From Halichondria panicea (Eukaryota > Porifera > Demospongiae > Suberitida > Halichondriidae): a stretch of DNA of 64,000 bases. The position numbers and the translations under genes were made by a program. Of the stretch, positions 19,777-40,715 are shown in pieces. The stretch covers positions 636,001-700,000 of the forward strand of contig NC_087378.1 of NCBI RefSeq assembly GCF_963675165.1, given 5' to 3'. The notes beneath the pieces were generated by a model. It did not search any database. It saw nothing but the letters and a program-made list of their open reading frames with translations, and was not told the DNA's origin. Numbering within the stretch: the stretch's first letter is position 1; each line of letters begins with the position of its first letter.

Positions 19777-21685
19777 TCAGAGGGAGGGGTAGGAGGCGTC
19801 TGTTGCTATACCACACTGGTTGTAGCGATTCCTGGACATCATGATGTAGCCATCTTCACCCCAAGCTGTGCCCCAGCTGTAGAAATAGACAATGGCCCTA
19901 GTCAATGCGAACAGATTGTGAAAATATTTGTATCAATGCATGTTTGTGAAAATATTTGTATCAATGCATGTTCGTTCAATGGGTATGTCATGTGGCTCCA
20001 TGAACCTTGACTTAATGTTGAATCAGTACATGCTTGACCTATTCATACTTTGCCTATATAGTTGGTATACTGTTGATGTGTATTTAGGGTAATCTGTATG
20101 CATGTGACGTACTCAGTAACATATGTTTTTTTGTCACTTTTCCAGCCAGTTATATATGACAGACCTTATTTTAAGATTTTAAAAAGGAAAAGCCTTACCT
20201 ATTTTTAACCCTCCAGTATTCTCTTCCATCCGATGATCTGCCATATCCTATCACTAGCATGGCGTGGTTGATGTCGTAGTTGGAGCACCGGTAATTGTCA
20301 AACACACCACTCGAGTAGAACTGTGGTTGTCAATATGTACACAGCAAGCATGCCGCATGCATGCACGACTATAATTATAGTACTGTGTACAAACTATTGA
20401 GGGGTAGAGTACCTACCCTAAATTCTGTGGAGCTTGCATCCACGGCAACTGTCACGGGACCAGCGAATGCCACAGCTGCTTGTAGGTCAGTCTCACTGCC
20501 TGCTCGTATTATGACTATCCCGGACATTGTTGCTCCTATTTCTTCGTAACTGAAGTTACAGGGCATTTGCTGCTAATAGTTAATACTTTAACTTTGTAAC
20601 CGTTTGTGGTTTTCAGTACAGTGTATACTCACCACTCCCTTGTAAGGGTAGTACTCTTCAGTGTTGACCCCGTCATTGAAAACAATATACATGAATGTAT
20701 TGTACATGTTTCCGCCATAGCATGCGTTGTTTCCTTCAGGCACTGTTTGTGTGTGAAATGTATGTTCCACTGTATAAAATTATGTCAATTATTGCGTAGC
20801 CAACAGGCACAATTCAAACCTCTTACGTGAGCAGTCGATGATGTTCTGCTCACTCAGTCCAGCACTTTTCCCGTACGCCAGAGAATAGAAACCTTCTAGG
20901 GCACCAATTGATGCAAATGCATAGCTAGCTCCACAGTCTTCCTGCATACATTTTTCACAGTTAGAGGGATTCACCGAGAATTACCCGCTATCATTTGTGC
21001 TTTTTAGGCTCAGTATTAGGTTGTGTTGTACTTGTTAGATATTCGGCCCCAGTTGGCACCTGATTTTTGACGTCCGAGATAGCCCCCTTCTGTCTCCAGT
21101 CAACAAACTCTGGCCAGGAGCTGAAAGTAGGCGGCACATAGATCTCTACCTTTGCATTGTGTTTACTGCTTTTGTCCCACGACTTATAGGTCAGGTACTG
21201 GGCAGCGTACTCAGAGTTTGTCTGCATGGACGGAAAGCAAGACGCGCATCAAAAGTGTTAATGTATTTCTTCATGTCAGCATGCACAGGAAATTATCGCT
21301 GTTACTCAAAGTCACCATATCAGCAAACTTGTTTAGTGCGAGTTTAAATCCTAGGACTCCAGCTCTGTAATTGACGTTATGCTGTTGTATGTACTCTCTG
21401 TTTGATAGCCACACTAGATGTCTCTCCAGCTCTTCTCTGTCCGAGTCATAATACTTAGTGTGCTTTGTCTTCCACAGCTGCCATTCCTCTATGAACTGAT
21501 ACTTTGGAGCCAGGCTTGCTGCTGATAGGACTAGTGTAACACTTAAAACTAGCAACAGCAGGGAAGCTGCAGTGCAAGAAACAAACGAGAGAAATCATCG
21601 TGCATGTTGCTAAAATAAACTAAGTGTGTATTATGTATGGCTATAAATGTAGTGTGTGTTGGGGCCTTTGCTTACCTTTGCTCAT
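19777..21685 (-). CDS. Silicatein 1 (Ser-substituted cathepsin L family)
   Basis: Eight exons (21685-21676, 21566-21316, 21221-21060, 20941-20827, 20742-20633, 20572-20417, 20320-20199, 19876-19777) join in phase into 341 residues. Silicateins are cathepsin L relatives that form the axial filament of demosponge spicules and promote silica condensation. Seen here: a signal peptide whose first three residues come from a 10-bp exon, an I29-type propeptide ([20 protein letters not shown]), then the mature domain. The active-site motif is DCGASYAF, so the papain-type Cys is Ser, as in silicateins. The His (INHAML) and Asn (KNSWGTAWG) are kept, and the C-terminus [15 protein letters not shown] is typical. 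It differs from the other two at [15 protein letters not shown]. The Ser-rich stretch before the His is poor here ([11 protein letters not shown]). It is head to head with silicatein 2. Confidence 0.93.
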
Positions 21686-22387: not shown

Positions 22388-24313
22388 ATGCTCGTGTCAG
22401 TAATAGCAGTACTGGGTCTCGTTGCAGTCTCCTCCGCCGTGGAGCCAAAGTATGAGTTTGTGGAGGAATGGCAAGTGTGGAAGTCTCGACACGAAAAAAT
22501 CTACGACACACATCTTGTAGAGCTAGAGAAACATCTTACCTGGTTGTCTAACAAGAAATACATCGAGCAACACAATGCCAACTCTCACATTTTCGGCTTT
22601 ACTCTTGCAATGAACAAGTTTGGAGACATGGTAAGAAATTCTCATGCATGGGAATTTCCTCTTCAATTTTTTTTGCTACAAGCTAAAGCTGTTGTGATTA
22701 CTGAGGATTTTTTCCTATAGACTGAGCTGGAATGGACAGACTACCTCTCAACGTACCAAGTTAGAGAACAGAACGAGAATGGAAACTACTCCAAGACCTT
22801 TCAGCCTGAATCCCAAGTCTACGATTATCCAGAGGCTGTAGATTGGAGAACAAAGGGAGCAGTGACTGCCGTGAAGGACCAGGTTTGTGCAAGGTTTTTT
22901 CACCTGTATGATTATATCGATGCTTAAATGCTTTTTGTTAGCTCATGCATGCATACATGGGATCCATTATGGTGCTATGAGATATTTCATCAATATTCCA
23001 TGATGTATAGGTGTGTTGCAAATCAATTAAATCATGCTCTTCTGTGTGTAAATAGGGAGACTGTGGAGCTAGCTATGCATTCAGTGCCATGGGTGCTCTT
23101 GAGGGAGCTTATGCTTTGGCTCACGGTGGGAACAGAGAGTCACTCAGCGAGCAAAACATCATCGACTGCTCAAGTTAGTTACCATGCACCTGCTGCCTCT
23201 TATTAGATTGCAACGTCGTGCATATGATATTCATACACCTGTTTGTATAGGCTTTATAAGACTTTCTATACTTATGTGAATATTATGTCGTCTTTTATTC
23301 TACCCCTTCAGTTCCCTATGGAAACCACGGTTGCCATGGTGGAAACATGTACGATGCTTTCCTATATGTGATAGCTAATGATGGAGTATCAAAAGAGAGC
23401 GCATATCCTTTCTTTGGAAAGGTAAGCATTATGATTTCCCGAGCCAGCTTTAGAGTTTTAACTTGGTATGGTATGTTCCTTGCAGTTTTCACTATAATTA
23501 TAATTGTTTTGCTATAAATTATAGCAATCATACTGCAACTACCAGAAGACGTACCGAGGCACCTCCATGTCTGGCAGTGTGTCTATTAAGAGTGGGAGTG
23601 AGGAGGACTTGCTAACAGCTGTGGCTAATGTGGGGCCAGTTTCTGTGGCCATTGATGGTGCTAACAGTGCCTTCAGGGTGAGCCTTTCAGTTAAGCATGC
23701 TACTTTAATAGCAGCATTGAGGCACGCTATTTGCACACTATTTGTCTTGCACATGATTTTTTTAGTGAGGTACAATGTTGTATATGGTGACTAGTGAAGC
23801 CTTTTGTTTCTGACATCTTAGCGAGAATGTACTTGCCTTTTTACAATTCGTTACCAAGCATGTCCAAATACATTAACACGTCATAATTATATCACCCCAC
23901 TCACACACACACTCAGTTCTACTACAGTGGAGTGTATGATTCTTCCCGATGCACCAGCTCTAGTCTCAACCACGCCATGGTCATCACTGGCTACGGTTCT
24001 TATTCTGGAAAGAAATACTGGCTAGCTAAGAACAGGTACGTATAAAGAATGGGTTAGAAACCCTTCACTTGGTTCAGCCAGAGATGCATATTTTGTTAAG
24101 TTTCTTTTTGCAACACATTGAACTCTGGAATGATCTTTTGCAATTCTCCTCTAGAAGAATGTTGCATTCTCTCTTGTGATATAACAATTATTCCCTCCTC
24201 TGTCTATCTGCAGCTGGGGGACCAACTGGGGACAGAGTGGATTTGTGATGATGGCCAGGGACAAGTACAACCAGTGTGGTATCGCCTCAGATGCATCCTA
24301 CCCTACACTCTAA
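22388..24313 (+). CDS. Silicatein 2 (alpha-like)
   Basis: Seven coding exons (22388-22630, 22721-22882, 23056-23173, 23312-23421, 23525-23677, 23917-24035, 24214-24313) join in phase into 334 residues. It has a signal peptide ([17 protein letters not shown]), a propeptide ([17 protein letters not shown]), then mature start [20 protein letters not shown]. The active-site motif is [17 protein letters not shown], so Ser replaces Cys. [19 protein letters not shown], the Ser-rich [13 protein letters not shown] with the catalytic His, and [12 protein letters not shown] with the Asn complete a Ser-His-Asn set. This is the most canonical silicatein of the three. Intron positions match the other copies, showing duplication of a common gene. 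A noncoding first exon ending near 22283 is likely. Confidence 0.95.
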
Positions 24314-24679: not shown

Positions 24680-27600
24680 ATGAGTGTATCTTTGTCTACC
24701 ACTCTCAGCTGGCACTTGCTGCTACAGACCTGCCTGGGGCTAGTACTGTCTGCAGCTGACACTCCTCCACACAGTTGTACCTACACATACACACTGAGGT
24801 CTGATGAATCTGGAGCCTGCATTCGAAGCAGCTTTGATCAGTACACAGCGTGCACAAATTTGTCCGTCTACCTTGAGTCTTTCAATTCCGGAACGTACTC
24901 CGGCTCGGATTGTGTTCAGTTCATTTGGAACCGGGCTTGTATGTACTGTCGGGGAAAACTTCATCTAGAATGAGATACAGTGTTGTCATGACCAGCACTT
25001 TGTTACAAAATGTTTCTATCAGATGTGTAGATCCCCACGTCCCATCAGGGAGAGACAAACTGGACGAGTACTTCGGACCGTTATTTTTCGACGGAGGTGG
25101 TACAGAAACGTCGTCTGTTGTATTGGACGGAATAAACTTTGAGGGCTGTAACCAACCACTACAGTTTGAAAACTTGCAATCAGTTGCTATTAGTAACTGC
25201 TCTTTTAGGTACGTATTAAGTCAATATTTTGTTAGTTCTATTATTATTATTCAATAATATTTGATGTTCTTTTCTACACAGGGGATACACTGCTTCTGCT
25301 GTGGATATGTCCAATATCAACACTATCGAGATTATGGATTGTTACTTTAACAATTGCTCAACAAATACGGAAAAGCCGCAATTCCATGGCAACTCTGGTG
25401 CAGTTTCAGTCTCTTACTTCCCTCAGAGTAATATAACAGTTTTATCCAATCAAACAAGACCATTTCTTTCGATTTCTAAAAGTATTTTCACAAACAATAG
25501 AGCAATTTTACCACCTGGAATTTCCCAGTCCCAACTGAACGAGGCCCTCAACAATAACATATATCACGGCCGTGGAGGTGCGGTCGGAATCTATGTCCAA
25601 GAGAATGTTCGCAACATCTCCGTGACAATTTGTGATTGCCTCTTTGATAATAACGATGCAGAGTCGTTCGGAGGTGGACTCTATTTGAATATTGATGGCC
25701 AAAATACAACGCATTCATTTAAAGTCGAAGGTACCAATTTCACAAACAACAGTGTCAAAGGAGAGGGAGGGTTCGGTGGGGCAGTTCAAATATCTTTTCT
25801 GAATCAGAATATAGACTATCCACCTACTGTGATGGAGTTTATACGATGCCACTTCGAGGGCAATACAGGATCGTACGGGGGAGGAGTGAGTTCGGTACAG
25901 GTGAGGTGGTTTGCATTGTTGTGAATGTTAACTTAATTTGATGTCTTTTATGTGAAGACTTTCAGTCAAGGTGCTGGTAATCTGGTGTCGATCTCCGAGT
26001 GCACCTTTGTGAATAACCGTGCCAACAATGTCGGGTCTGCTCTCATGTTCGCCTCTTTCCTATACGTTCAAAACCGTTTTGAATCTCATCACTATCGATG
26101 TCACAATAAGTAAGTACTCAGTACACACTTTAGACTTACTATTCATTAACGTTCTCTCTGTTTTGCAGTTTGTTCGCCAGAAACAGTGCACCTGGAGGCA
26201 CGTTCGGAGTCGCCTTCATCAACACAAACATGTCTGGCCACAATAGACTGGAGTTTAATGAAGGACCTGGTTTGCGGGTGATCACTAATAATGATTTATT
26301 ATGTTGAATCTGTATAATTATTAGCGCACACTTTTCTGTCTCCTTCACTTTCCTTCTTGTAAGAGAACGTATGACAGCTAATGTTTGAGAGTAGCCCATT
26401 CTATTTGCAAAAAAATGTTTTGGCGCCCATTATTTTCTATTTTTGGTGCTATATTTTTTTGAAGATGGTCCTTTCCCTGTAGGTGGTGGGTTCTCAAGTG
26501 GAGATTCTTCGCGGTGGACTGGTCAGTTTCATCGGCAACAACGCTGAGAGTAGAGAGGGCGGAGCTCTGTTCATGCAGGACTTTGGGCAGATCAAACTAC
26601 ATTCTAATACGTCAATGGAATTCATCAACAACACTGGAATGTAATGGTTGTCAAATTTCATTTCATTTTAAATTATTATCTGTCTTTACAGGATTGGTTC
26701 AGCCATTGTAGTGACAGTACAAAGAGCTTCCCCAGTGTTCTCTCAGCTTGTATACAACCCACAGTGCTTCCTCATCTACGAGAATACGTCACTGTCACCA
26801 GGGCAATGGGATGATGTGAGTTGAGCTACAAAATACCAACATTTCATAGCATTGCATGTGTGTGGCCTTGGTTGTCCATGTTCTCACTTGTGTGTGTTTG
26901 CTTTACTGTAACATATGCAGTGGCAAGTGATGTACTCATGTTCGTAATTCGTATCATTGCATGCATGTGGCCTTGGTTGTCCATGCTCTACAGCTACTCA
27001 CTTGCGTGTGTTTGCTATAACTGGCCCAATAGACACGAAATGCAGTGTCATGTGATGTGCTCGTGTTTGTATGCAGGTGTCCATAAGGTTCTCTGGTAAT
27101 CGTGCATCAGTGGGTCCAGCCGTGTACATATCTCACTTGGATCACTGCTCCTGGTTCTCTGCCGACAAAGTTGACAAGGGTACCAACGAAATAGATGTTA
27201 CCTTTGGAATTGAGCGGTTCCCAAACTGGAAAGTTTTTGAATTGTGAGTTCTACTGTTTGAGGGTGTAATGGCTGCATGTGATTGATATGGTTTTGCAGC
27301 AATGAAACCAACTATGCCACTTCTCTCAAAGACGACCCGACAGCTAGTACTTACTACTTTCAAACTGAGCCTGTCAATATCAGCTCAAGCAATGGCACAG
27401 CTCCAGTAAGTCCAGTATTGAAGGCTCCAGATGTGAGTGACATGTGTCCCCCCTGTGTGTGTGTGTGTGTGTGTGTAGCTTCCTATTCGTCCTGGAGAGA
27501 GGAGTCGTGTGAATTTTATGGGAGTGGATCAGTTTGGGAACCCAGCGTACGTTATCTTGAGACTGTCTGACTCGAGGACTGCCATCAGCAATGGAGCTTT

Positions 27601-30406
27601 CAGTCAAGCAGGAGACAGTCCTACTACTGACAGCATGGTGAGTGCTTGTACCTACACGTGTGACAATGCTAGAATCTGGAATATGCAGCTATTTGGTTTA
27701 TGTCAATAGTACTAGCCAGTAAACAATTTTAATTTCCCTACAGGATTCAAATCAAGTTCGCTTTGAACCCTCACTGCTCCCCATACAACCCAGTGATGAG
27801 TCAGTGACTGTGGTGTACGGATTCCCATCTCTCTCACCCGAAACGTTTCGTCAAAATCAAAATCAAGTGGTTCAGATACTTATTGACACACCTTACATCG
27901 TCAGAAGTGTAAGTAACTAACAATTCTTGATCTCCGTTATTTATTTACTTTTTTTAGGCTGAGAAGTTCTACTTCAATTTGTCTATAGTGCCCTGTCAAC
28001 CTGGCTATGAGCTCCGTCAACAGACTAATGGTGACAGACTCCTTTCTTGTCGCTGTGTCAGAGACAACTACAACATCTTAGACTGTGAAGAAAACGTGGT
28101 CATTATGAGGGATGGTTTCTGGGGAGTTGAAGAGGATGACCCCACCCCCCACCTTGACCTCACCCCCTGCCCTGCCTCCTATTGTCGCTGTCACACACGA
28201 GGGGGACAGACGTGTGAGGCTCTCTTCTTTCAACAAGACCCCACCCTCAATCTCCAGTGTCACCCTCTCAGAAATGGTGAGCATTGCAATAATTAGCTAT
28301 CTTGACAGTATGTTCACTGCTCCACTCCAGGCACACTGTGTGGTCAGTGCATCAATGGAACTGGTGTGGGGGTTCTGAGGACCAACTGTAGAGACTGTGA
28401 TCAAGACAACTACTACGCTATTGCACTCCTAGGTAAGTATTCAGGTGTCCTTAGTGTGTTGTTACCCTCCCTCCACTCATGCAGTTGTTGGTGATATCAT
28501 ACTGGTTGCACTGATCCTTGTCCTTGCTATCAAACTTCACGTGAGCTTCCCAGAGTCTATGAAGGGGCTCTTGTTTTACATACAGACTGCCTACTATACG
28601 ACTGAGTACTTCCCAATATCATTTTGGAACATCAGAAAATACGTGAGTAATACTCCCTCATGTAATACACTATATCTAGAGACTGTCTGTTTTCAGATGC
28701 TGTTTCTCTCGAGTGCCATTGGACTGTACTTTCCGTGGGATTTCTGTCTGTTTCCATCCATGTCTCCTCTTGTATCCTTTGCTCCAAAGTTCACTCCAGC
28801 TGCAATCGCAACTCTCGGCTCTACCATAGCGATTATCACCATCTATGTAACTAGGTATATAAGCTACAAACCATTATCATACCAGATTAGCACTGACTTC
28901 TTCCCCATGCACAAGGTCACGTGATGGTCGTGAGTATGTTTGGCATGGGGTGTGGAGTCTGGTGCTGCTACTCTATGCTCCTCTGGTCCACACTTGCTTG
29001 AATCTCCTCCAGTGTCAGTACACACCAAGTGCAGACGGAGAAGAGGAAGCTTTAGTGAGTCCATCACATGACGTTCTGTGTCGTGACTGTACGTATATGC
29101 ACCCCCCAGCACTGGTACTTGGACGGGACAGTGACATGCTTCCAGGATCCCAGTCACACTGCACTGGGTGTGATAGCCATCTTTGTTCTGCTGGCCTTAG
29201 TGTTGCTCATTCCAGCTGTGTTTGTATTCACAGTGATAGCAAGCTCCAAGCAAATACAGGTACCTTGGAATGTTTCTAGTATGTGGACAATGAATATAAG
29301 CACTTTGCATTAGGTATATGTAGGTTATATGTTTGATCTAGGTTGCTCATATTATCTTATTGTTGTCTGGTTTCTACAGAGCCAATCTCGTACAATTGAG
29401 TGGATGTACACTGCATTAACGGCTGGGTACAGGGACTCTTGGGAGGCAAAATGGTGGAGCTCTTTTGAGCTCCTCAGAAGGCTCCTCATTTTAGGCATTG
29501 CAGTGGTCCTACCTGGGAGATCAGTAAGTGTTCCCTACAGTGTGTGAAACACATCAATTGATGTCTTACTCCCTCACAGGTAGCCAATCTGTATGTACTG
29601 CTCAATGTGCTGGCCATTCATCTGTTCTTAAAACCCTACAAGAAGCTGTGGCAGAACATACTGGAAGCAGTGATACTGCTCAACTATGCACTGCTCATGA
29701 TGATCAGAGGTACCCCCTCTTTCCTGGATACGTACGCTATCTACTCAGGCATACAGGTACAATAACTAGAGGCCACATGCAGCAGTACAATATCACTGAG
29801 TGTGTATGCTACAGATCCCTGAGAACTGGAATGGAGACTTGACAACCACTGACAGTGTCACTTGGCTTCTATTCCCATTCTTCTACTTCCCTGTACTACT
29901 GGGTGTGGTCTTAATTGTCACTGTTGTCATCTACCATGTCGTAAGGTAAAGTTGACACCTTTTAGACTGTTTCGTGTGTGTGAATCATTCATATGCTAAT
30001 TTTATTGTCTCCATGACTATGTCGTACATGCTCACACCTTGTCTCGGTGATTAATTATAACTATCCAACCTATACTTATGGACTTAAAGGACGGTACTAG
30101 GATATATGAAAATGTTGCGTTTCAGGTTTTTTGCCTTTGTTATAGCTGATGCAAGTTATGTTCAATGCTGTTATCACTTTTACTGAATGAGACACTTGCT
30201 TGAGAAACTAAATACAACTGCATGTTGTGTCATGCACCATCAGTTTTGTCTCTTTCAGAAAACTAACACTTCGTAGCAATAATTGGAGCCTTCGTAGACC
30301 GCCTGCAGCCAGTGTATTGGATAACGACGATTTTTTGGAAGTCAAAGATGTCCATGCAAAAAGTGGTAACTATACAAGAACAACGTTTGGTTTAGATGAG
30401 CTATAA
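24680..30406 (+). CDS. Beta-helix multi-pass receptor A (apparent frameshift in exon 1)
   Basis: About 20 exons: 24680-25208, 25282-25900, 25958-26109, 26169-26277, 26483-26640, 26692-26815, 27076-27243, 27300-27405, 27479-27637, 27744-27908, 27958-28275, 28331-28432, 28485-28642, 28697-28854, 28916-29054, 29110-29259, 29380-29523, 29580-29755, 29815-29945, 30259-30406. Order: signal peptide, Cys-containing lead (SCTYTYTLRS), beta-helix repeats (CDCLFDNNDAESFGGGLYLNI), Cys-rich neck (PCPASYCRCHTRGG, LCGQCINGTGVG), then a multi-pass membrane block (VVGDIILVALILVLAI, WHGVWSLVLLLYAPL, WWSSFELLRRLLILGIA, LFLKPYKKLWQNILEAV) and a short tail ending TFGLDEL. In exon 1 the frame used from the ATG meets a stop at 24971. 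The homologous residues HLEPGLY continue in another frame from about 24919, as if one base were missing. Function unknown; possibly a pseudogene or an assembly error. Confidence 0.75.
27958..29945 (+). repeat. Inverted duplication, left high-identity arm
   Basis: This stretch, exons and introns included, is nearly identical to the reverse complement of about 33899-35890. For example, the intron-spanning translation at 28445-28924 is residue-for-residue the same as at 35408-34929. Identity drops sharply after the splice site at 29945 and more gradually upstream of about 27958. Confidence 0.9.
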
Positions 30407-30443
30407 TATACTATAGCAATTAAAACAGACTTTCTTTTTATGT

Positions 30444-30966
30444 CAGCATACATTTTTTTATTTTAGTCCGCTGTTAATTTTTGTGTTCAGTAGATGCAAT
30501 GTCGACAACTTCTTTCAAAACTAATTTGTGCTGTATGCATGGTGTGTATACGTATTGACAGGAGTGCACTCCTAGTGTTGAGCATTAAGTGCTTTGTGCA
30601 TGGTGTGTATACATATTGACAGGAGTGCACTCCTAGTGTTGAGCATTAAGTGCTTTGTGCATGAAACAATAGGTTGTAAAGAACACCAAAGCATAGGGGG
30701 ACGTACTATTACATGCTTCTTGTACTTTCTAGCGCGTCAGCATACATTTTTTTGTTTTAGTCTGGTGTTAATTTTTGTGTTCAGTAGATGCAATGTCGAC
30801 AACTTCTTTCAAAACCAATTTGTGCTGTATGCATGGTGTGTATACGTATTGACAGGAGTGCACTCCTAGTGTTGAGCATTAAGTGCTTTGTGCATGAAAC
30901 AATAGGTTGTAAAGAACACCATAGCATAGGGGGACGTACTATTACATGCTTCTTATACTTTCTAGC
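30444..30966 (+). repeat. Tandem duplication between receptor A and silicatein 3
   Basis: Two units, about 30444-30736 and 30737-30966, share GTCAGCATACATTTTTTT, AGTAGATGCAATGTCGACAA and GGGGGACGTACTATTACATG. Unit 1 has an extra internal 63-bp duplication (GGTGTGTATAC to GTGCTTTGTGCAT). Each unit contains the palindrome GGAGTGCACTCC. Short ORFs here are by-products of the repeat. Confidence 0.9.
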
Positions 30967-31089
30967 GCACTGTGTTTTCAATTGAAAGTCATTTTAAAAG
31001 ACAAATTTCTTATGTTGACACGTTTTCTGTTATTGGAAGTCATGTGTCTCTATAGCCTTTGACATGCAAATTCATGAATAAAACCTGGC

Positions 31090-31096
31090 TATAAAG
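31090..31096 (+). promoter_or_regulatory. TATA-like box of silicatein 3
   Basis: TATAAAG lies 74 bp upstream of the ATG, which would place transcription start near 31120 and give a 5' UTR of about 50 bases. Similar TATA-like sites lie upstream of the other silicateins. Confidence 0.5.
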
Positions 31097-31169
31097 AGAG
31101 ACTGATCTGTGGTAGACTCTACTCGGTGATCTAGCTTCAGTTGTATACAGTTGAGAGGAATATTCAAGA

Positions 31170-32861
31170 ATGAAGATCTTAATAGTCCTAACATTACTTG
31201 GCCTGGCTTGTGCTAGAGGAGTGCCAAAGTATGCATTTGTGGAGGAATGGCAACTGTGGAAGTCGTCTCATGAGAGGGACTACACTACCGACAGAGAGGA
31301 GCTTGAGAAGCATTTAGTGTGGCTGTCTAACCGAGAGTACATTCAACAACACAATGCCAACTCGGAAATCTTTGGCTTCACTCTCGCTATGAATCACTAT
31401 GGAGACATGGTAAATTGGTGAATTCTCACTTCACTCTTTTCAGAGAAATGCAGCCTACTTACTCAGGATTAGTGTGGTTATTTCTTTCACCGTTGTAATT
31501 CTTTTTTTCAGACTGACATGGAGTACATGGAGAAGTTTGCGACTTACAAGAGAACCAAGCATACAAACAGTAAAGAGTATAAGCCAGTTAAAGGCGATGA
31601 CACCAGTGGCTACCCAGTATCCATGGACTGGCGAACAAAGGGAGCTGTCACATCAGTCAAAAGCCAAGTAAGCATGCATGCATACTCCAATACTATAGCA
31701 TCTTAGACTAGCAGTCCTTCTATTTTCAGCCATAGCTTCAGGGTATGTGTATATACAAAAGGAAAGGCCTTAATTCTCATTTCCACAATCATATTTACCT
31801 TACTGGCTTAGTAGTTGTTTTCTATTTCATAGTCATTTATGAACTTCTGATACACAGGGAGATTGTGGTGCAAGTTACGCCTTCAGTACTATCGGTGCTG
31901 TTGAAGGAGCTTGGGCTCTGGCTCATGGAAAACAAGTGGCCCTCAGTGTACAAAACATTGTGGATTGCTCTGGTAAGGCCGAATCTAGTCACCACATATA
32001 CATGCAGCTAATTATGCTTATTTCCATCCCCCAGTTTCGTACGGGAACCATGGCTGTCAGGGTGGGAACATGTATGATACTTACATGTACATTCTGGCTA
32101 ACGAAGGCGTAGCCACACAGGACAAATATCCGTTCTATGGAAGAGTAAGCGAGACCCTATATAACTATAGAGAACTAACCGCTGTTACTATACGTGTGTT
32201 TTGCAGCAAGGGCAGTGCAAGTACGATTCATCCCTTTATGGAGCCAAGATCTCCGGTAGTGTGACCATCAGCAGTGGCAATGAAGCTAACCTCCAGGCTG
32301 CAGTGGCTAGTACTGGTCCCGTGGCAGTGGCAGTCGATGGAAGCAACAAAGCATTTAGAGTATGTGCATGCACAGGCACACCATAGTATAAGAGGAGTAT
32401 ATATTGATGGCAATAGATTTGAATGTGCTGCTAGCTATAAAGCTGCTCCTTTTTTGCCATCATGCAGTATTACAACAGTGGAGTGTACAATCTCCCTGGG
32501 TGCTCCAGTTACTCTCTAGACACTGCTCTACTGATTATTGGCTATGGAACGGTTAATGATGTTGACTACTGGCTCCTCAAGAACAGGTAAACATTAATTT
32601 TGTGTCTACATGTATAGATTAGCTAGCATAAGCTTCTACCTCAACTCAGAATGTAAAGCTAGGCATACCAAATTGTCTGATATCTGCATGTAACTATATA
32701 GTCTATTCTTTAAAAGGAAATTTGCATGCACCTGCTAAACAATTGTCTCGTTTCCCTGCAGCTGGGGCACTAACTGGGGAATGAGTGGCTACATCATGAT
32801 GTCCAGGAACAAATACAACCAGTGTGGTATAGCCACTGATGCCTCATTCCCAACTCTTTAG
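31170..32861 (+). CDS. Silicatein 3, lacking the catalytic His
   Basis: Seven exons (31170-31409, 31512-31667, 31858-31972, 32035-32144, 32207-32359, 32468-32586, 32762-32861) join in phase into 330 residues. It has a signal peptide ([15 protein letters not shown]), a propeptide ([20 protein letters not shown]) and mature start [18 protein letters not shown]. The active-site motif is [17 protein letters not shown] (Ser for Cys, as in silicateins), then [19 protein letters not shown]. Where silicatein 2 reads [12 protein letters not shown], this copy reads [12 protein letters not shown]: the catalytic His is Thr and the preceding Asn is Asp. The Asn of [12 protein letters not shown] remains. 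Splicing and reading frame are intact, so this is not simple decay. By the cathepsin mechanism it should be inactive as a hydrolase; a structural filament role is inferred. It sits between inverted receptors A and B. Confidence 0.94.
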
Positions 32862-33108
32862 ACAACTTTAACTCTATAGGCAGTAGATTTTGCATACACA
32901 CGTGTCCCTATTCGTTTAATTTGTGTGATTTAGTTCTATTTATGACTATACAATCTGTTCAATTGTTAGTGCAGTCTGTTTAATTGTGTGTCCACCTTGT
33001 ACGTCTGCATTCAGAGAATTCTTGTTCTTCATTACCTTCATGAATGTCTACATGTGTCATGTGCTAACAAATGCACTTAATTACATGACATGCACTTGCA
33101 ACATAATA

Positions 33109-33659
33109 GTCCTATTCGTTTAAGAGCCTGGAATTTTGATTGCTATTATCAACTGTCAGTGAGCTAGCTGGTCTTGAAGATACCTACTATACACACAGTA
33201 AGTGCAGTAGTAGTAGATCTAAGAGGTAGTCTAATGCTCAAGGATGATGGAACATCTTATATACATAGTAGGCATCTGCAGAATTGTGTAGAGGAGATGT
33301 TCCACCATCTTGGAGCATTAGTTTACCTCTTAGATCTACTACTACTGCACTATACTGCACTTACTGTGTATATAGTAGGTATCTTCAAGACCAGCTAGCT
33401 CACTGATAGTTGACAAACACTCTCTGGGACAAAAACCATTGTGTAGCTCTTACTTCAATATTTCACAAACTTCCATTGTTTAGAATAATAGTGCATGCAT
33501 TGCAGAATGCAGAGGCTGCAAAAACGCATTGATTTTACAATGACTTCAATGTAAAAGGGTGTGCCAGCTCAGCACAATTTTACTGCGGAAGCTATACAGG
33601 AAGTAGTTAGTGGGCGTTCAAATAGCAATCAAAATTCCAGGCTCTTAAACGAATAGGAC
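33109..33659. mobile_element. MITE with long terminal inverted repeats and nested fold-back
   Basis: The ends GTCCTATTCGTTTAAGAGCC and GGCTCTTAAACGAATAGGAC are perfect inverted repeats, extending through AATTTTGATTGCTATT. TA is duplicated just outside both ends. Inside, 33149-33413 forms a second inverted repeat (GAGCTAGCTGGTCTTGAAGA pairs with TCTTCAAGACCAGCTAGCTC), nearly palindromic over about 265 bp. No transposase ORF is present. Confidence 0.9.
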
Positions 33660-33722
33660 TATTGTGTATATTCAAACAAAATTAATGCTCAAACATGAAT
33701 GGGTTAAAAAAAATTCCTTTAA

Positions 33723-40715
<6,993 letters not shown>

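Follow-up and report, generated by a model that had tools for sequence, protein, structure and literature searches.

A Silicatein Gene with Thr in Place of the Triad His, Shaped by Purifying Selection

Results

Silicatein 3 Is an Intact Gene with Thr at the Triad His Position

Silicateins are sponge proteins that contribute to the making of glass spicules. Silicatein 3 (sil3) carries Thr where the other five silicateins modeled in the same genome carry the triad His. The gene is nevertheless shaped by purifying selection and is not visibly decaying, and it evolves at a rate equal to that of the His-bearing silicatein 2 (sil2). It is one of three silicatein genes (silicateins 1, 2, and 3) found in the stretch of 64 kb analyzed here (the window), which corresponds to positions 636001–700000 of contig C2. 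The genome searched comprises 131.5 Mb in 39 contigs. The features of the window to which we refer are as follows (window coordinates).

About 19780..21561, minus strand: silicatein 1 (sil1), Ser/His/Asn; start and stop ends not refined
22388..24313, plus strand: sil2, the silicatein alpha-like comparator, Ser/His/Asn
31090..31095, plus strand: TATAAA, possible promoter element 81 nt upstream of the sil3 ATG; consensus match only
31170..32861, plus strand: sil3 gene, seven exons, 330 amino acids, TAG stop included
31170..31409, plus strand: sil3 exon 1, encoding a signal peptide, as judged by eye, and the first part of the I29 propeptide
31512..31667, plus strand: sil3 exon 2 (exon model)
31858..31972, plus strand: sil3 exon 3, bearing GDCGASYAF
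31873..31875, plus strand: AGT, Ser at the nucleophile position, kept (counted by hand; alignment column)
31948..31950, plus strand: GTA, Val163, LSEQ changed to LSVQ (position counted by hand)
32035..32144, plus strand: sil3 exon 4 (exon model)
32207..32359, plus strand: sil3 exon 5 (exon model)
32468..32586, plus strand: sil3 exon 6, frame 1, holding the triad His position
32522..32524, plus strand: ACT, Thr277 replacing the triad His (codon read; alignment column)
32582..32584, plus strand: AAC, triad Asn, kept (counted by hand; alignment column N)
32762..32861, plus strand: sil3 exon 7 and stop (exon model)

The first-pass annotation described a change from His to Thr in exon 6 with frame and splice sites intact, and both observations were confirmed. 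Each of the six introns in the exon model is bounded by GT...AG, and no stop interrupts the 330-residue frame. A spliced alignment with sil2 as the query gave identical internal exon boundaries and was trimmed at the two gene ends only. The codon at 32522–32524, in frame 1 of exon 6, is ACT, compared with CAC in sil2. Two substitutions separate ACT from CAT, and three separate it from CAC; the replacement of His by Thr thus cannot be put down to a single-base error. An alternative exon bearing His was rejected: the two His-like motifs from a six-frame motif scan of 30400–33700 lie on the minus strand, and neither resembles a silicatein. Pfam recognizes an I29 propeptide (PF08246) at residues 27–85 with 52.0 bits (46.5 in sil2) and a papain-like C1 domain (PF00112) with 243.2 bits. 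None of the eight polyadenylation-signal hexamers tried was found in the 539 nt past the sil3 stop; sil2, by contrast, has AATAAA 175 nt past its stop. A scan of the 64-kb window with Rfam gave no family at the gathering score.

Two copies of a multi-exon gene block (25964–29949 and 33894–39458) face in opposite directions, with arms that range from 76 to 99% complementary, the longest being 1299 nt at 98%. Because sil3 occupies the spacer between these arms, its segment could invert by recombination. Just 3′ of sil3 (33146–33416), a pair of inverted repeats, one nested in the other, has arms 64 nt (95% complementary) and 65 nt (88% complementary) long and resembles a hairpin-forming element. 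Between the flanking gene and sil3, at about 30440–30960, repeated blocks with AGTAGATGCAATGTCGACAACTTC followed by a TGTATAC...GACAGGAGTGCACTCC unit were noted by eye.

Among the Aligned Copies Only Silicatein 3 Lacks His, and the Rest of Its Triad Is Kept

The triad of sil3 is Ser, Thr, and Asn. In an alignment of 15 rows (six silicateins, eight cathepsin-type copies, and mature Tethya silicatein alpha), the His column contains H in 14 rows, including Tethya silicatein alpha, and T in sil3 alone. The word "also" in the first-pass annotation finds no support: silicateins 1 (DINHAML) and 2 (SLNHAMV) in the window and silicateins 4–6 elsewhere in the genome all retain it. A second site is affected in the same way. 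Glu is found at position 163 in 13/13 other aligned papain-family genome copies and is Val in sil3 (E163V); of the 49 columns that are identical in those 13 copies, sil3 differs at two, H277T and E163V. In papain, the Glu that matches E163 is probably part of a buried network of charges beside the cleft, in which case both losses unique to sil3 touch the active-site region.

In the alignment, the nucleophile Ser (AGT at 31873–31875, equivalent to Ser26 of Tethya silicatein alpha), the triad Asn, and the oxyanion Gln (Gln19) are all kept in sil3. The Ser-bearing SYAF motif is present in six of six silicateins, and Cys occupies that position in all eight aligned cathepsin-type copies. Six cysteine columns (C138, C173, C182, C215, C274, and C323), which would form three disulfides, are invariant in an eight-row alignment. 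Near the triad His position sil3 reads CSSYSLDT and sil2 reads CTSSSLNH; in the loop that precedes it, residues 266–269 (D266N, S267L, S268P, and R269G) are all derived in sil3. A cluster of serines near the triad His is described as a silicatein feature in PMC2755733. The change of Asn to Asp beside His is also real, but it does not qualify as a loss, since Asp is a common cathepsin L state. The adjoining residue is N, D, T, or S across the silicateins, and in the eight aligned cathepsin-type copies it is Asp in four (those nearest to cathepsin L) and Thr or Asn in the other four.

Silicateins and Cathepsins across the Genome

Searches made exon by exon matched 77 stretches of the genome with PF00112 and 104 with the sil3 protein. 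Gene models were derived from 18 fetched regions, one of which (L026) gave no model, and from eight automatic loci; long single-frame matches at C8:493–521 kb and C3:6878284 were left outside the modeling. Ser is present at the nucleophile site in six models, namely silicateins 1–3 and the following three.

C6:198.8–206.3 kb (L009): silicateins 4 and 5, Ser at the nucleophile site
C13:23.5–27.4 kb (L016): silicatein 6, Ser at the nucleophile site

The 15-row alignment omits the models from L006, L007, L008, L014, L015, L017, L018, L020, L021, L022, and L025. From L023, whose two genes are near-identical, and from L024, the second gene was likewise left out. In the L020 model a splice junction falls at His, and its state could not be scored.

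Several of the family members have unusual sites of their own. The cathepsin L-like L006 (C9:2570213–2570788) is an open frame of 206 amino acids in which both catalytic residues are lost, Cys being replaced by His (HCFSHWAF) and His by Arg (LDRSVLVVGYG). The cathepsin-like L007 (C17:4223896–4224480) has Thr at the nucleophile position (CGTTAAF) and keeps His; the matched stretch contains one TGA if introns are ignored. Silicatein 4 has an odd active-site loop (L009 1930–2230, C6:199.9–200.2 kb), in which DQ is followed by CGSS with two residues missing; the splice site is uncertain, and another acceptor would give DQMAYQCGSS. In silicatein 1 (20827–20941, minus strand) the motif NQEDCGAS has Glu directly after the oxyanion Gln, a position at which silicateins 2 and 3 have Gly. 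L023 (C6:4945500–4953000) contains two near-identical cathepsin L genes, each with one intron in the models, and adjoining fragments, one with a stop; the arrangement resembles a local duplication.

Two scans of viral contigs found no relatives. When genome contigs were scanned with a protein alignment, the best 80 of 468 relatives all had bacterial or archaeal titles, with identities of 38% or less. These were set aside, and the only outside silicatein compared is 6zq3 (Tethya silicatein alpha).

Silicatein 3 Appears to Be an Old Paralogue

Over the mature protein, identity to 6zq3 is 77.4% for sil2, 66.5% for silicatein 4, and 63.6% for sil3. Sil2 and Tethya silicatein alpha form a group with support of 96/92 in the 15-row protein tree and 96/97 in an 11-row tree. 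Sil3 joins them at 84/84 in the former, and its placement has no resolution in the latter. A moderately supported branch (78/88) has the silicateins, sil3 included, to one side. As sil3 falls outside the pairing of sil2 with Tethya silicatein alpha, the duplication that gave rise to sil3 seems older than the split of that pair, and, as judged against this single outside sequence, sil3 is apparently an older paralogue.

Silicatein 3 Evolves under Constraint

Of the 86 sites that do not vary among the remaining five silicateins, sil3 departs at four (L147V, E163V, H277T, and G289D); the equivalent figures for silicateins 1, 2, 4, 5, and 6 are 7/89, 6/88, 4/86, 7/89, and 21/103. A codon model of silicateins 1–4 (315 codons) gave omega = 0.080 on the sil3 branch against 0.123 on the remaining branches, which did not improve on a single ratio (2dlnL 0.50). 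A value of omega = 1 on the sil3 branch was rejected (2dlnL 7.56; 7.95 and 7.14 on the other two topologies). None of 200 simulations at omega = 1 reached 7.56, the largest value being 5.95, although in one of the 200 the estimate of omega was down at 0.08. Saturation of the synonymous sites (dS between sil2 and sil3 is 3.36, and dS exceeded 50 in two of five pairs tried) makes omega only rough. Relative-rate comparisons of sil3 with sil2 against three outgroups (36:32, 31:34, and 24:33) give no acceleration.

We also simulated neutral drift. When indels are left out, 3% of runs still have an intact frame and splice sites after 0.05 substitutions per site; after 0.01, the gene is intact in 51% of runs without indels and in 21% with them. 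The few departures in sil3, its low omega, the equal rates, and these simulations together argue that selection has maintained the gene through most of its past. Sil3 does not have the hallmarks of a pseudogene, as its frame and splicing are intact and omega = 1 is rejected branch-wide, a test that is blind to a very recent loss of constraint. Relaxation confined to exon 6 was considered and set aside: the exon has nine derived changes in sil3 and three in sil2, which is not significant (Fisher p 0.12), and the trend in exon 7 is the opposite (one in sil3, six in sil2).

Discussion

A Putative Pseudo-hydrolase in the Filament

On balance, though by a narrow measure, we favor a reading of these sequences in which sil3 would be a functional old paralogue turned pseudo-hydrolase, matured in trans and co-packing in the filament as a surface template. 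It would enter the silica deposition vesicle as a secreted proprotein. Lacking the His base, it would be poor at cutting its own propeptide, and it would putatively be matured in trans by other silicateins or by cathepsins. Once mature, it would putatively pack into the axial filament beside alpha-type subunits, where its surface, and not a Ser-His attack on silicon, would promote the deposition of silica. Thr cannot serve as the base that His supplies in such triads, so Ser-His hydrolysis and propeptide self-cleavage by sil3 should be lost or very weak, and this much is a fair inference. His may serve maturation or a soluble stage rather than the filament, which would fit a His-less subunit.

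The first-pass annotation expected sil3 to be a non-catalytic filament subunit or to have a new role. The term non-catalytic is apt for the expected loss of hydrolysis and self-processing; its extension to a loss of silica formation is unsupported, because assays of H165A proteins disagree. Nor does sil3 offer the clean separation of structure from chemistry that was claimed for it: Ser, Asn, Gln, and the propeptide persist, and a purely structural sil3 would not obviously need the three residues. We dropped hydroxyl-rich composition as support for templating, since the Ser+Thr+Tyr content of sil3 (24.9%) is not special; that of sil2 is 25.3%, and the cathepsin-type copies span the identical range (20.3–26.5%).

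The articles cited here are divided on what His contributes. H165A had 8.0% activity in the assay of Zhou et al. (1999), according to a table in PMC11733937, and a review gives a ten-fold reduction for mutations of Ser26 and His165 (PMC3820600). Povarova et al. found H165A of silicatein A1 slightly less active with TGS and H165A of a sponge cathepsin a bit more active; templating was proposed on the basis of the Ala mutants, with the authors' own caveat that spontaneous TGS hydrolysis could mask a lost hydrolytic step (PMC6233156). In ceria formation, Vigil et al. reported that H165A and the double mutant were not significantly different, and that S26A was lower (PMC11740617). Ser and His lie 3.6 Å apart in the native Tethya filament, and the site is termed inactive in the crystal (PMC7733841). 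The role of the Ser-His pair in silica condensation, which the first-pass annotation gave as central, is disputed: H165A keeps little activity in the 1999 assay and most of it in the two later ones.

Alternative Explanations

An unlikely alternative is that sil3 makes silica about as well as the other silicateins. His would never have been essential, the surface or the Ser hydroxyl would condense silica, and Thr would be near-neutral; the constraint on His elsewhere would reflect proteolytic maturation and not silica chemistry. The near-normal behavior of H165A proteins with TGS (PMC6233156) and in ceria formation (PMC11740617) points this way, as does the Ser kept in sil3. Against it stand the possible masking of a lost hydrolytic step by spontaneous TGS hydrolysis (PMC6233156) and the 8.0% figure of 1999 (quoted in PMC11733937). 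Moreover, 5/5 other modeled silicateins retain His, so the residue has some value. We regard as improbable a very recent loss of His from an active copy, in which the low omega would reflect earlier history and sil3 would be an incipient pseudogene or one null allele. A branch-wide omega cannot date the loss, and a gene that had drifted by only 0.01 neutral substitutions per site would be intact in 51% of simulations (21% with indels). The surplus of changes in exon 6 (p 0.12) and the missing polyadenylation-signal hexamer in the 539 nt past the stop are what such a history might leave. Yet the codon requires at least two base changes, the otherwise invariant E163 has changed too, and the trend reverses in exon 7; survival in just 3% of simulations at 0.05 substitutions per site, without indels, means that any neutral period was short.

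A new role as a decoy or regulator, comparable to that of other pseudoproteases, seems to us very improbable; in that role, the inhibitors, propeptides, or substrates bound by sil3 would be those of cathepsins and silicateins. Regulatory pseudoproteases are known (iRhom, for example), and the propeptide and the aligned active-site residues other than His are conserved in sil3, but no regulatory hint was seen at the locus, and the composition and charge of the mature protein are within the range of the other copies. Least credible of all is a sequencing or assembly error: although the gene was read in one assembly, an error would have had to make at least two changes in one codon and leave the frame intact, in a contig of 8.6 Mb.

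Significance

Passive scaffolding is one of three silicatein roles already discussed in PMC10282587, so the scaffold idea is not new here. What bears on it is the natural His-less copy. Among the matches listed in literature searches, titles and abstract openings report no natural silicatein without His; such a protein may already be known to specialists. Ser-His-Asn chemistry and templating have so far been argued from mutant proteins with conflicting results (1999, 2018, and 2025). Here selection has maintained a His-less copy, and a His-bearing one lies about 9 kb away in the same genome, which makes the question one that can be asked in the animal: what place sil3 has in the filament, how it is processed, and what effect it has on spicule form. 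We consider follow-up worthwhile because a disputed test-tube question becomes accessible in this way, with sil3 as a natural test of whether building glass needs triad chemistry. A bolder version of the pseudo-hydrolase reading, which we offer tentatively and hold to be rather doubtful, is that sil3 would be a dedicated filament subunit, conserved and lacking His, with no need of triad chemistry to shape glass, and that demosponges would use two forms of one family, a self-processing Ser-His-Asn form and a non-hydrolytic template.

Comparison with Known Silicateins

Sil3 shares with Tethya aurantium silicatein alpha (6zq3) and with sil2 the C1A domain, the GASYAF Ser, the Asn, the Gln, and the six cysteines. 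It differs from both in having Thr for His, LSVQ for LSEQ, and a remodeled serine cluster before the His position. The Tethya filament contains silicateins alpha, beta, and gamma at 12:6:1, beta and gamma being minor subunits (PMC7733841). Beta and gamma resemble sil3 in being paralogues of alpha within a set of several silicateins in one species; sil3 may be their counterpart and is possibly of the beta or gamma class. In Terpios hoshinota three silicatein genes bear the numbers THG008206, THG008208, and THG008209 (PMC12465263). Their near-consecutive numbers, with one skipped, recall the window, where one gene block separates sil2 and sil3; as this match in gene order is drawn from gene numbers alone, it is suggestive only. 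A further parallel comes from the laboratory H165A mutants, in which, as in sil3, His is removed and Ser and Asn are kept. Unlike those mutants, sil3 is natural, has Thr and not Ala at the site, carries accompanying changes, and has a history under selection.
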